Shown here one piece after another: positions 9,586 to 59,666 of a stretch of 64,000 nucleotides of DNA (its first letter is position 1; each line of letters starts with the position of its first letter). The notes below the pieces were generated by a model that was not told where the DNA came from, did no database searches, and saw nothing but the letters and a program-made list of their open reading frames with translations. The DNA is from Acidobacteriota bacterium (GTDB lineage: Bacteria > Acidobacteriota > Blastocatellia > Pyrinomonadales > Pyrinomonadaceae): NCBI GenBank assembly GCA_025463125.1, contig JAOAPX010000074.1, positions 1 through 64,000 on the forward strand, in the 5' to 3' direction. The translations under genes were made by a program, and so were the position numbers.

Positions 9586-9978
9586 TTATTTTCCCGAGTT
9601 GCTGAACTGCGAATAAGCCACGCGGAAAAGCTCTGACAGGGCTTTTGCCGTTTCGGGCGATAAATTTTTATCCGCGCGCAGATGCGCTTCGACAATTTCA
9701 GGCGTCGCTTCGTGCGGGTAATAAACCACCGCTTCGACATCTTCCTGATTGCGGTTTTTCATCACGCGGTCAACCGGCATATCCAGCCAGTTTGTCAATC
9801 GCGCGATGTTGTCAGCATCGGGTTTTCCGGTTCCGTTCTCGATTCTGGAAAGCGTCGAAGCCGACACGTTTGTTACGTCCGCGACATCGCGAAGACTTAA
9901 TTTCAATTCTTCGCGACGACGCTTGATTGCTCTTCCGAGTTCGATTGTGTTTATAAGAGTTTCGTTTTTGTAAGCCAT
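9586..9978 (-). CDS. XRE-family helix-turn-helix transcriptional regulator
   Basis: A 130-residue DNA-binding protein. Residues 10-68 form a Cro/cI-type HTH: LGRAIKRRREELKLSLRDVA, then SASTLSRIENGTGKPDADNI, where the SxSTLSRIENG part is the recognition helix region. The C-terminal 60 residues are not a recognised domain. An AGATGAGGAAATT ribosome-binding region precedes ATG 9978. It is divergent from the SWIM-Rad52 gene; two matching palindromes in the shared intergenic region are good candidates for its operators. Repression of the divergent gene and of itself is inferred from operator position, not shown. Confidence 0.9.
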   Translation of the reverse strand: MAYKNETLINTIELGRAIKRRREELKLSLRDVADVTNVSASTLSRIENGTGKPDADNIARLTNWLDMPVDRVMKNRNQEDVEAVVYYPHEATPEIVEAHLRADKNLSPETAKALSELFRVAYSQFSNSGK

Positions 9979-10042
9979 AATTTCCTCATCTCCACGTTTA
10001 ACTTTTTAAGTGCCGTAGATGCACCGTCCATGTCACGCATAA

Positions 10043-10071
10043 AACATAACATAGTGATTTTTTAAATGCAA
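10043..10071 (-). promoter_or_regulatory. Predicted promoter for the XRE regulator
   Basis: On the minus strand TTGCAT (10071-10066) and TATGTT (10048-10043) are separated by 17 bases, close to the sigma-70 consensus. The predicted transcript has a leader of about 55 bases before ATG 9978. Confidence 0.5.
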
Positions 10072-10077
10072 CACCGC

Positions 10078-10093
10078 GTTTCACACTTGCAAC
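10078..10093. promoter_or_regulatory. Candidate operator O1 (imperfect palindrome)
   Basis: GTTTCACACTTGCAAC matches the perfect palindrome at 10116-10131 at 12 of 16 positions and is itself a near-palindrome (GTTTCA against GTTGCA on the other strand). It covers the -35 hexamer of the predicted plus-strand promoter. Its centre is 38 bases from the second operator. Confidence 0.5.
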
Positions 10094-10115
10094 AAATAAA
10101 ATTGTTTGATACACT
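10087..10115 (+). promoter_or_regulatory. Predicted sigma-70 promoter of the SWIM-Rad52 gene
   Basis: TTGCAA (10087-10092) and TACACT (10110-10115) lie 17 bases apart. Transcription would start near 10122, inside the palindrome at 10116-10131. The leader carries an AAGGAG ribosome-binding site at 10188-10193, six bases before the start codon. Confidence 0.6.
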
Positions 10116-10131
10116 GTTTCATAGATGAAAC
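10116..10131. promoter_or_regulatory. Candidate operator O2 (perfect palindrome)
   Basis: GTTTCATAGATGAAAC consists of two perfect 7-base half-sites around a 2-base centre. It directly follows the -10 hexamer and covers the predicted start point, which is the classical position for a repressor site. The divergent XRE protein is the obvious candidate to bind it. Confidence 0.6.
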
Positions 10132-10199
10132 GAGGGCGTTTTATTCTTTACTTAAACTAAGGAGTATCGACAGTTCGAGTAAGTTCCAAGGAGAAGATA

Positions 10200-11444
10200 A
10201 TGGCAGTAGCGGTAGCAGATAAAAATACAACGGAAAAACGCGAGAAAAGAGCTAAATCGATCGCGGCGATGGGACTTGTCAATCGCGAAGGCGACAAGTT
10301 CACGGTTTCGACGCCGAGTCTTCGCGGTCGTCAATCGGTTTACGATGTCTGGCGAGATGAAAACGGGAAAATTCGTTGTAATTGTTTAGAGTACGAAGAA
10401 GCGTCTGTTACGGATCCGGGATTTCGTTGCGAACACATTTTAGCGGTGAAATACGCTCTTGTGTCGAAGAATACCGAATCGGTCACGAAACAGCCGCCTG
10501 TAAATAACGACTTTACGGCGAAAGCGGAAGTTAATTCACAGGCAGTTTCAACAGACAAAAGCACAACTGAGTCACGCGAGTCCACGCGCGGCGAACAGAA
10601 GACTGAACGAGTCGCGGCGGATGTTTCAGCAAAAGGACAGGCTGAAGCAAACGAAGCCGAAACTCTTCAACTTGCAGATACACAAGGAGACAAAAAAGTG
10701 AAACAAGAAATTTATAAACAAGTTTCGCCGGAAGCGGCGGAAGCGGCGACAACAGAAACTGCTGTTGAAACAATCGAGGTTGCGAATAACGTCTTGAATT
10801 TTACGACAACATTAAAAGAATTACGCAAGAATGTCGATCCGAACCTGATCAAGCAGCGCGAAGGCTGGCGCGACCGCAACGGAAATACGCATTACGTCGA
10901 TTACGTCGAATGGCACACGGTTGCGGACATTTTGGATGAAACCGCGCCGAACTGGTCGCATACGATTCGCGACATCAAACAAATCGGCGATATCTTCACC
11001 GTCACGGTCGCAATCATGATCGACGGCATTACGCGCGAAGGCATCGGAACCGGCAGCGCCGAATCCGAACTCGGAATCAAGAAAGCCGAACACGATGCTC
11101 TGAAACGAGCCGCCGTAAAATTCGGTATCGCCCGCGATCTATACAAAAAGGAATCGGACGTTATCGAACGAGAAGGCGCGGTTCCGGCGCAAAATGACGG
11201 CGGCTTTCCGGCAAACCCGATTGCCCGGAGCTTGTCTGATTTAGTCACGGCGAAACAGCTCGGAATGATTCGCGCGATCGCCCGCGAAATGGGAATCGAT
11301 GCCGACGAAGAATGCAATAATGTCGTGCAGTGCAAAACCGATGAGCTTTCCAAAAAAGCCGCTTCGACCTTTATTCAGCACTTGCAGGACATGCAAAAAG
11401 GACAACAGTCGAATTCGGCGCAGCCGATGCGCCGTGCCGGTTAA
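10200..11444 (+). CDS. SWIM zinc-finger / Rad52-family single-strand annealing protein fusion
   Basis: Predicted recombination mediator of 414 residues. Residues 60-79 have the SWIM zinc-finger pattern C-x-C-x14-C-x-H (C60, C62, C77, H79). A low-complexity Gln/Glu/Ser/Thr/Ala-rich linker follows (about 90-195). Residues 197-317 resemble the Rad52/Rad22 annealing domain: YVEWHTVADILDETAPNW, a central strand-rich region, EGIGTGSAES, then KAEHDALKRAAVKFG. The C-terminal part (about 343-400: TAKQLGMIRAIAREMGID) is helical and resembles tails of phage annealing proteins. Rad52-like proteins anneal complementary single strands; SWIM modules in Sws1/Shu-type proteins support recombination. The fusion, the divergent XRE gene and the operators suggest a regulated, perhaps phage-derived, repair function. 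Confidence 0.82.
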   Translation: MAVAVADKNTTEKREKRAKSIAAMGLVNREGDKFTVSTPSLRGRQSVYDVWRDENGKIRCNCLEYEEASVTDPGFRCEHILAVKYALVSKNTESVTKQPPVNNDFTAKAEVNSQAVSTDKSTTESRESTRGEQKTERVAADVSAKGQAEANEAETLQLADTQGDKKVKQEIYKQVSPEAAEAATTETAVETIEVANNVLNFTTTLKELRKNVDPNLIKQREGWRDRNGNTHYVDYVEWHTVADILDETAPNWSHTIRDIKQIGDIFTVTVAIMIDGITREGIGTGSAESELGIKKAEHDALKRAAVKFGIARDLYKKESDVIEREGAVPAQNDGGFPANPIARSLSDLVTAKQLGMIRAIAREMGIDADEECNNVVQCKTDELSKKAASTFIQHLQDMQKGQQSNSAQPMRRAG

Positions 11445-58200: not shown

Positions 58201-59666
58201 CGATCGGGCAGTTTTATATGCCAAACGGATTTTTTAATAAGACTCCGGCAGAGACTGTTTCCGCTATTAAAACTTTTCAAAATCCTTCGATCGTCATACT
58301 TCCTTTCAAAGACGACGATGTTTCGCGGGAAAACGTGGGCGTCGGGTTTGCCGACGCTTTAACGCGAAAGATCGGTAATATAAAGCGCCTGACGGTGATT
58401 TCATCAAGCACCGGACGCCTGATTGCCGATGCCGATCTGCCGACCATAAACAAGGAGCTCGGTTTGGTTTTCGTCATTCGCGGAACAATGACCAAAAAAG
58501 GCAGCGGAATCAATATCGCGTCGGAAATGGTTAATTCTTCAACCGGCGACGTTTTGTGGAGCGAATCTTTTTCCGATGAAAAAAGCGATTTGTTCGTTTT
58601 ACAAACGAAACTTGCCGAAAAAATTCTGGCAAGCTTATCGATCGAGCCGCTTCCGCTTGAAAAAGAACAGATTTACCGCAGTTACACAAGCAATTTGCTC
58701 GCTTACCAGCTTTTTCTTGTCGGTCGGTATCAAATGACGAACCGTTCGCCGGAAAATCTGCGAAAAGCCATAAACGCTTTTTCCCAATCGCTGAATGAAG
58801 ATCCGAACTTCGCCCTGGCGCACGTCGGTCTTGCAGACGCGTATCTTTTATTAAATCTTTACGACGTAGAACCGCCGCCGGACGCGTATCCGAGAGCTGA
58901 ACAAGCGGCTCTGCGAGCTATCTCGATCGACGACAATCTGGCTGCCGCTCACACTTCGCTCGGATATATAAAGTTTTTCAACAAACGAGATCGCGCAGGC
59001 GCCGAACTTGAATTCCGCCGCGCAATTCAAATCAATCCTTCATACGCGCAGGCACACCACTGGTTTTCTTTAACGCTTTCGGCGATGAAACGACCGACCG
59101 AAGCGATCAGCGAAGCCCGGACAGCCGAACGCCTCGACCCGCTTTCATCCGCCGTGAAGACGGCTTTATGCGCCGCTTATTATTATGGAAAGCAGTACGA
59201 GCAGGCTCTTGCGACGTGTGATAAAGCTTTAGCTCTGAATCAGGACTTTGTTCCCGCGCATAAAACAAAACGCTGGATTTATCTCGCGACAGGCGAATAC
59301 CAGCCGGCTCTCGATTCTTTCAGAAAAGAATACAGCTACAGCGGCGGCAATAATGAACCGGGCTGGACGATTATAAAATCGCAGGTCGAAGCGCTCGGCA
59401 GCAATCGCGAAAAAGCCGTTCTGGAATTGAAACAAGCGATTGAAGCGCCGGAAATAAAAAATAATCCGTTCGTTTACGCCGAAGAAATAGCCCTGGCTTT
59501 TAACGCTTTAGGCGATCGGGAAAACGCGCTTTTATGGCTGGAAAGAGCCGAAGCAGCCAATAACCACGGCTTTAATTTTATATTTGCTCATCCGCGTTTT
59601 GAAAATCTCGAAAACGAGCCTCGCTTTCAAGCTCTTTTGAAAATCGTGCGGGAACCGAAACATTAA
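55287..59666 (+). CDS. Giant Ser/Thr protein kinase with two TolB-like/TPR modules
   Basis: A 1,459-residue protein. Residues 1-60 are a helical region common before acidobacterial kinases. The kinase domain (about 94-400) has GRGGMGTVFLAE, the Lys of VAIKLI (about 130), HRDIKPSN (about 221) and LDFGIAK (about 241), so it should be active. A TolB-like domain (about 424-557, AVLPFKFINLN and VDYILDGNIKK) and TPRs (about 571-890) follow. Then one membrane segment (about 957-977), a second TolB-like domain (about 998-1117, IVILPFKDDD, FVIRGTMTKKG) and more TPRs (about 1134-1451). The same module thus lies on both sides of the membrane. Confidence 0.9.
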   Translation: MSPDRWQQIEAVFQSALDLAPDKRELYLAEHCRDDDELRREVAKLLSDYDSADSFIESPVWTDSRFLNSSAKKVLSESFNEDAHNANTDFLNGKRIGVYRLTREIGRGGMGTVFLAERADGEFSQKVAIKLIKRGMDSDFIIRRFRHERQILASFEHPFIARLLDGGTTAENLPYFVMEYIEGDTLYNFCDKKSLNVKERLKIFQKVCSALQYAHENQIIHRDIKPSNILVTRHDVPKLLDFGIAKVLNPDLIHESINPTASIMRLMTPDYASPEQVCGGEVTASSDIYSLGILLYELLTGHRPYNFNGRALHEVSRVICEVAPELPSAIIGKSGNLLPQYAEYSDKFARLRSTEPDALKRELAGNLDNIILKALGKEISDRYDSAQEFSEDISRHLRGESVLAKPFFPKTQTKTLKPLSEIPGKSLAVLPFKFINLNPSDNTGDSFLGLGLTDALIARLSQVRRFVVRPTSSVLQFQDSLSDPIKAGKDLGVDYILDGNIKKANDRLRVTVQLLSVAENATIWATSIDETLADVFALEDTLSNKMIEVLLPQLTGSEREEFSRRGTSNAEAFEKYLRGRYYFNSFTEDGFAKAFISFHEAIAADPEYAHAYAGIADYYNWLGIFGVLPPQDCFQSAISAATKAIELDEELSEGHASLGFSLHAGNYDWSKAEQHLSRALELNPNNATAYVWYSIVLYTEARFTEGLELARRGVELDPLTPFNIHNLGWGFYYARRFEDGINQYKKLIADFSTYGLAYYGLSKIYRITGKTAESVDEIQKAKELFNDSVFSLLSEAESYAADGQRDKAEDKLNKLLELSKTRYVSPYQLSLVYCYLNEKEKALELLEKAFEIKEAWTNWMGVEPAFDPLRSDERFQKILEKTGYHHFFNNFPVSSNYPGKTTDGSKTGDNLKQLSPTTQSYSFHNETTLNLQGLEETSEGKEKTVSPKRKNSRRKTFTYAAAGVLAVLFGAAIGQFYMPNGFFNKTPAETVSAIKTFQNPSIVILPFKDDDVSRENVGVGFADALTRKIGNIKRLTVISSSTGRLIADADLPTINKELGLVFVIRGTMTKKGSGINIASEMVNSSTGDVLWSESFSDEKSDLFVLQTKLAEKILASLSIEPLPLEKEQIYRSYTSNLLAYQLFLVGRYQMTNRSPENLRKAINAFSQSLNEDPNFALAHVGLADAYLLLNLYDVEPPPDAYPRAEQAALRAISIDDNLAAAHTSLGYIKFFNKRDRAGAELEFRRAIQINPSYAQAHHWFSLTLSAMKRPTEAISEARTAERLDPLSSAVKTALCAAYYYGKQYEQALATCDKALALNQDFVPAHKTKRWIYLATGEYQPALDSFRKEYSYSGGNNEPGWTIIKSQVEALGSNREKAVLELKQAIEAPEIKNNPFVYAEEIALAFNALGDRENALLWLERAEAANNHGFNFIFAHPRFENLENEPRFQALLKIVREPKH

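Follow-up and report, generated by a model that had tools for sequence, protein, structure and literature searches.

The window, the whole 64,000-nucleotide stretch of DNA that was analysed, carries the gene xre and a gene for a Rad52-like protein (rad52) in divergent orientation, with palindromic sites between them. The features are listed below; promoter boxes were placed by eye.

9586–9978, minus strand: xre, an XRE/HTH_3 protein of 130 aa, the proposed regulon repressor (Pfam HTH_3, E = 1.8e-15)
10030–10045, no strand: O0, a weaker third operator, ATGTCACGCATAAAAC, starting 48 bp from O1 on the xre side (matrix score 10.7)
10043–10048, minus strand: proposed xre -10 box, TATGTT, 17 bp from the -35 box (by eye; mean 1.35 bits, 62 loci)
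10066–10071, minus strand: proposed xre -35 box, TTGCAT (by eye; mean 1.54 bits, 62 loci)
10078–10093, no strand: O1 operator, GTTTCACACTTGCAAC, between the two proposed -35 boxes (mean information 1.60 bits, 62 loci)
10087–10092, plus strand: proposed rad52 -35 box, TTGCAA, inside O1 (by eye; positions at 1.9 bits, 62 loci)
10110–10115, plus strand: proposed rad52 -10 box, TACACT, 17 bp past the -35 box (by eye; mean 1.43 bits, 62 loci)
10116–10131, no strand: O2 operator, GTTTCATAGATGAAAC, directly after the -10 box and over the expected start point (mean information 1.48 bits, 62 loci)
10200–11444, plus strand: rad52, a Rad52/22-type single-strand-annealing protein with a SWIM-like zinc finger, 414 aa (Rad52_Rad22, E = 5.2e-10)

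The HTH_3 match bears out the initial annotation of the divergent gene as a cI/Cro-type HTH protein. The N-terminal HTH is followed by conserved C-terminal helices, with a conserved block, IVEAHLRAD..LSPETAKALSELFRVAYSQF, in an alignment of 19 sequences, and XRE orthologues were found in 42 of 60 genomes (E <= 4e-11). The Rad52-like protein matched an Erf-like annealing protein in PHROG (E = 6e-8); the match to the SWIM finger (E = 0.0023) lies under the Pfam cut-off.

The twin palindromes that had been reported from the letters alone were found in place, with 12 of 16 letters identical and a spacing of 38 bp. The placement of one over a -35 box and of the other on the expected start point also held, with the boxes set by eye and the hexamer regions kept across 62 relatives. 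By position, O0 overlies the proposed xre -10 region. A scan of 9960–10260 for strict sigma-70 consensus promoters and terminators gave no match; the promoter boxes are based on inspection and conservation. Within the window, O1 and O2 are the two top-scoring sites (23.1 and 22.3, with the next best at 12.7) for a matrix that was trained on relatives and included the window's own pair among its training sites. Allowing up to three mismatches, O2 matches in the window only its own position (on both strands) and one place with three mismatches. The third-best operator-like site, GTTTTACAAACGAAAC (score 12.7), is located at 58596–58611.

Distribution of the operator among relatives and repair genes

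An XRE alignment was used to scan a species-genome collection. This confirmed 117 relatives, of which the best 80 loci were retained; exclusion of two cut-off loci left 78 usable. The titles of these best 80 of 117 loci name Acidobacteria/Acidobacteriota, Pyrinomonadaceae, Blastocatellia, Chloracidobacterium, Aridibacter or Pyrinomonas. A pair was defined as two sites each scoring at least 8, and rad52 was counted as adjacent when a Rad52-like gene lay within 1.3 kb of the XRE gene. Among the best 80 of 117 relatives, the pair was present in 62 of 68 loci with an adjacent rad52 (61 at a spacing of 38 bp, one at 39 bp) and in none of the 10 loci without one (Fisher p = 6e-9, kinship ignored). 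Non-conservation of the palindromes where the gene pair is kept, one of the outcomes that would have spoken against the initial annotation, is hence excluded. At +38, five of the six exceptional rad52-adjacent loci retain a degraded sequence that can still be recognised (scores 4.1–6.5). Averaged over the 62 loci, the information per position in O1 and O2 (1.60 and 1.48 bits) compares with 0.12 bits for the 40 bp behind O2.

A third site scoring at least 8 lies on the xre side of O1 in a number of the 62 pair-bearing loci; its distance is 48 bp in 25 of them, 51 bp in 6 and 41 bp in 2. Several loci lacking both rad52 and O2 retain one site near xre, as autoregulation predicts. The description of the region as operators in a divergent repressor/promoter layout therefore stands in so far as the sites look like operators and are conserved with the gene pair; its phage-like switch component does not. 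In many relatives (L046–L053 and others) a small conserved, coiled-coil-like gene (..IWETFD.LFKT..RQ.RRVEELEARI), missing from the window, separates the operator from rad52.

The same palindrome was found at other repair genes. The strict pattern GTTTCAN4TGAAAC gave 6 matches in the window's genome and 10 in the genome G006, and the reversed control pattern gave 0 in each. In ten close genomes, the relaxed pattern GTTKCAN4TGMAAC gave 75 sites versus 12 for its reversed control, and 59 of the 75 lie upstream of marker genes, xre included, at a distance of no more than 450 bp; this proportion is descriptive, as the marker list was drawn from the sites themselves. The number of these ten genomes with a site at a given gene is recA 10, xre 9, ruvA 6, the SWIM-Rad52 gene 6, a Sak4-like gene 6, a DinB-family gene 6, a short Rad52-like gene 4, a gene without a Pfam match 4, topoisomerase IB 3, a second ruvB 2 and an XPB-like helicase 1. 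The other 16 of the 75 sites lie outside the marker set, some of them within genes.

The independent test used recA, with a matrix trained solely on xre-rad52 sites and a threshold of at least 12 bits in the 250 bp preceding the gene. A site was present in 29 of 31 genomes of the same family versus 0 of 21 genomes from elsewhere in the class, where the best score was -0.7 (the test left out the family genomes G007, G012, G024, G028, G031 and G036, and G053 and G059 among the others). The two exceptions in the family are G009, scoring 9.4, and G021, scoring -5.4. The matrix scan also gave no recA site in genomes that carry XRE but lie outside the family; it seems that recA joined the regulon only inside the family.

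A second twin-operator promoter, with a spacing of 39 bp, was found at the gene for the Sak4-like NTPase (PHROG 124) in four genomes (at 846 and 885 in L094, and in L100, L119 and L124). In the window's own genome, the short rad52 is without an upstream site, its best score of 15.0 falling downstream, and the irrE-like gene has a weak upstream site (8.9). Among the loci examined, irrE-like genes distant from xre had no strong site (best 9.9).

Several further observations were made in these scans. The gene without a Pfam match (MTKNLFEMEEQ..) has the operator upstream in four genomes (L097, 4098–4640, minus strand; L109; L120; L122) and is divergent from topoisomerase IB in three genomes. A small gene of no assigned family (MKITVKxKQAGRKHALxE..; L113, L126) has an operator 44–57 bp upstream in two genomes. 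The recA frames of G008 (L224) and G041:C111 are 756 and 720 aa long, and the interruption of the match after residue 212 points to an insertion or an intein.

A probable M78 partner of XRE

The initial annotation had noted that no ImmA-like protease is nearby. This is correct for the locus and incorrect for the genome as a whole, since the window's genome has a gene for an M78 (IrrE/ImmA-type) protein on a separate contig, and many relatives have one next to xre. Over 60 genomes, 40 have both XRE and the M78 protein, 2 have XRE only, 2 have M78 only and 16 have neither (Fisher p = 1.4e-10, kinship ignored). The genomes with a single partner are G032 (incomplete) and G051 for XRE, and G001 and G004 (both incomplete) for M78. 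In 24 of the 40 genomes with both proteins, no more than about 4 kb separates the M78 gene from xre.

The partner matches Peptidase_M78 at 57.7 bits (cut-off 22) and, at 202–219 aa, is too short for a GAF-like domain. A structure model (pLDDT 82.5, from 18 sequences) gave CapP as its best fold match (Z 12.5), followed by PprI (10.7 and 10.5), Mycobacterium tuberculosis regulator entries (10.2–10.5) and IrrE (9.5 and 9.4), and the next match below these M78-type entries falls to Z 4.3. By inspection, the predicted C-terminal HTH is placed in the same order as in PprI. In 20 of 20 xre-adjacent copies, and in the copy of the window's genome (MEExxH), the motif is EExxH rather than HExxH, the first histidine being absent. 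Conservation of the altered motif argues for a function. PprI and CapP reportedly cleave their repressors in response to ssDNA (PMC10904395); for the present partner, judging by its sequence, proteolysis by the known HExxH route is not assured.

Candidate binders of the palindrome

The palindrome could be bound by XRE or by another regulator. LexA is the second-ranked candidate, behind XRE: the palindrome would then be a LexA SOS box over recA, ruvA and xre-rad52, with xre as one regulated gene or XRE as a local regulator, a reading that we consider unlikely. It draws on the SOS-like target set and on a match to the LexA DNA-binding domain in 47 of 60 genomes. It also draws on recA, which is without a site in non-family XRE genomes that have no or a weak LexA match (G037, G041, G048, G049, G051, G056 and G057). 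Other family members have a LexA that retains every cleavage residue, which was counted against an XRE/M78 regulon. Although LexA usually controls its own gene, an operator of 12 bits was found in 0 of 26 lexA promoters examined (best 8.8). Moreover, the site beside xre persists in G037, G048, G051 and G057, which have XRE and no LexA match, and in G056, where the sole LexA match is weak and lies in an 842-aa frame. As the site is absent from lexA promoters and present beside xre in genomes without a LexA match, XRE is the likelier binder.

The state of LexA in the window's clade bears on the same question. Across the clade lexA loci L211–L220 (G000, G001, G006, G023, G027, G032, G014, G017, G033 and G018, respectively), the Ala-Gly bond is lost in 10 of 10 genomes and the catalytic serine in 7 of 10. 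The complete set for self-cleavage (Ala-Gly, Ser, Lys) is accordingly found in 0 of 10 genomes of the clade, as compared with 16 of 16 other LexA loci examined. Yet all 10 clade genomes whose LexA is without the cleavage bond keep the recA site, with scores of 12.8 to 25.5.

Still less probable, in our estimate, is a purely local divergent switch, in which XRE would control only itself and rad52 and the other palindromes would be the similar site of another regulator. The occurrence of the local site without a recA site outside the family fits such a switch, as does the O1 of many relatives (GTTTTA..TTGCAAC), which is slightly unlike the distal sites. Against it, a matrix built from local sites alone scores recA sites at up to 25.5, and in four genomes the Sak4-like gene has twin sites arranged likewise, with a spacing of 39 bp.

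The phage-like repression switch of the initial annotation, or more broadly a phage or mobile-element immunity switch of the cI/Cro or ImmR/ImmA type, whole or remnant, was rejected as very improbable: the cI/Cro-type HTH, the divergent promoters with several operators, the ImmA-type partner and the relation of the annealing proteins to phage families speak for it, but the locus occurs across a bacterial family, tblastn of the XRE and Rad52-like proteins against 50,697 phage records gave no match for either, the same palindrome lies at recA, ruvA and further core repair genes, and an IrrE/ImmA-type partner is encoded in the genome. Neighbouring ORFs in the window, named by eye, include DAHP-synthase-like and arginyl-tRNA-synthetase-like genes.

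A proposed damage regulon and its relation to known systems

In Deinococcus, as described in PMC8072749, the DdrO/IrrE (PprI) system consists of an XRE repressor of ~130 aa with a C-terminal domain and an M78-type partner, coexists with LexA, and acts at a palindrome near start points, targeting recA, ruvB and the repressor gene itself. The present system resembles it in the size and layout of XRE (HTH and C-terminal domain), in the M78 partner and in the coexisting LexA, as well as in having one palindrome upstream of recA, of other repair genes and of the repressor gene. It is unlike DdrO/IrrE in its phylum and in its partner, which has EExxH rather than HExxH and no room for a GAF-like domain. 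The Rad52-like annealing target parallels ddrA of Deinococcus, whose product is Rad52-like. The operator presumably differs from the Deinococcus RDRM. DdrO chains match XRE in HTH residues only (E about 1e-5), and a fold comparison of XRE, covering mainly HTH residues 7–78, had no DdrO among the 50 matches listed, which weighs neither way. The XRE/M78 system thus works like DdrO/IrrE and is not filed as a member of it: three of the traits were found, and the HEXXH motif was not.

From the sites computed here, their conservation and spread over repair genes, the co-occurrence of XRE and M78, the predicted M78 fold and the loss of LexA residues, we infer that XRE and its M78 partner probably run a DdrO/IrrE-like, SOS-independent DNA-damage regulon in Pyrinomonadaceae. 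Its working, as pieced together from the anatomy of the locus and the Deinococcus precedent (PMC8072749), would involve binding by XRE, inactivation of the repressor and induction by damage. XRE would bind the palindromes and repress its own gene via O0 and O1, and the divergent rad52-like gene through O1 over the -35 box and O2 over the start point. Repressor dimers bound at O1 would obstruct the rad52 -35 box and crowd that of xre, and those bound at O2 and O0 would cover both start regions. XRE would also repress a scattered regulon of recA, ruvA(B), the second ruvB, and the Sak4-like, short Rad52-like, topoisomerase IB and DinB-type genes. Upon DNA damage, the IrrE/PprI-like M78 partner, perhaps sensing ssDNA, would inactivate XRE, and removal of the repressor would induce the regulon, scattered single sites included. 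This response would run alongside LexA, whose self-cleavage bond is missing in the window's clade.

More tentatively, we suggest that Pyrinomonadaceae may have replaced the SOS response independently: LexA self-cleavage would have been lost, and XRE with an EExxH M78 sensor would control recA, ruvAB and three kinds of single-strand-annealing protein, XRE being inactivated perhaps without HExxH chemistry. A literature search over titles and the openings of abstracts found no description of a regulon of this kind for Acidobacteriota. If the proposed regulon is real, a DdrO/IrrE-type response, which controls recA in Deinococcus and relatives, also governs core repair in another, very common soil phylum, in a version whose operator is its own and whose protease motif is altered. 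The regulon would further offer a route to testing the replacement of LexA, and sequence would predict damage-responsive genes in bacteria about which almost nothing is known.

Other known systems share parts of this arrangement. As in the LexA/RecA SOS system, recA and ruvA share one palindromic operator; unlike in that system, lexA is without the operator and the LexA of the clade is without its cleavage bond. DdiA of Myxococcus xanthus is likewise an XRE regulator of a LexA-independent damage response, but differs from XRE here in that it activates dnaE2 and inhibits recX, and the available part of PMC12288472 mentions no M78 partner for it. ImmR/ImmA of Bacillus subtilis mobile elements is also a pair of an XRE protein and an M78 antirepressor (PMC8072749), whereas at the present locus a mobile element is not indicated and the targets are chromosomal repair genes. 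CapH/CapP of CBASS similarly combines an XRE-type repressor with an M78-type protease, which is ssDNA-activated (PMC10904395). Unlike CapH/CapP, which controls a defence pathway, the present pair has core repair genes as its targets; CapP is the best structural match of the modelled M78 partner.
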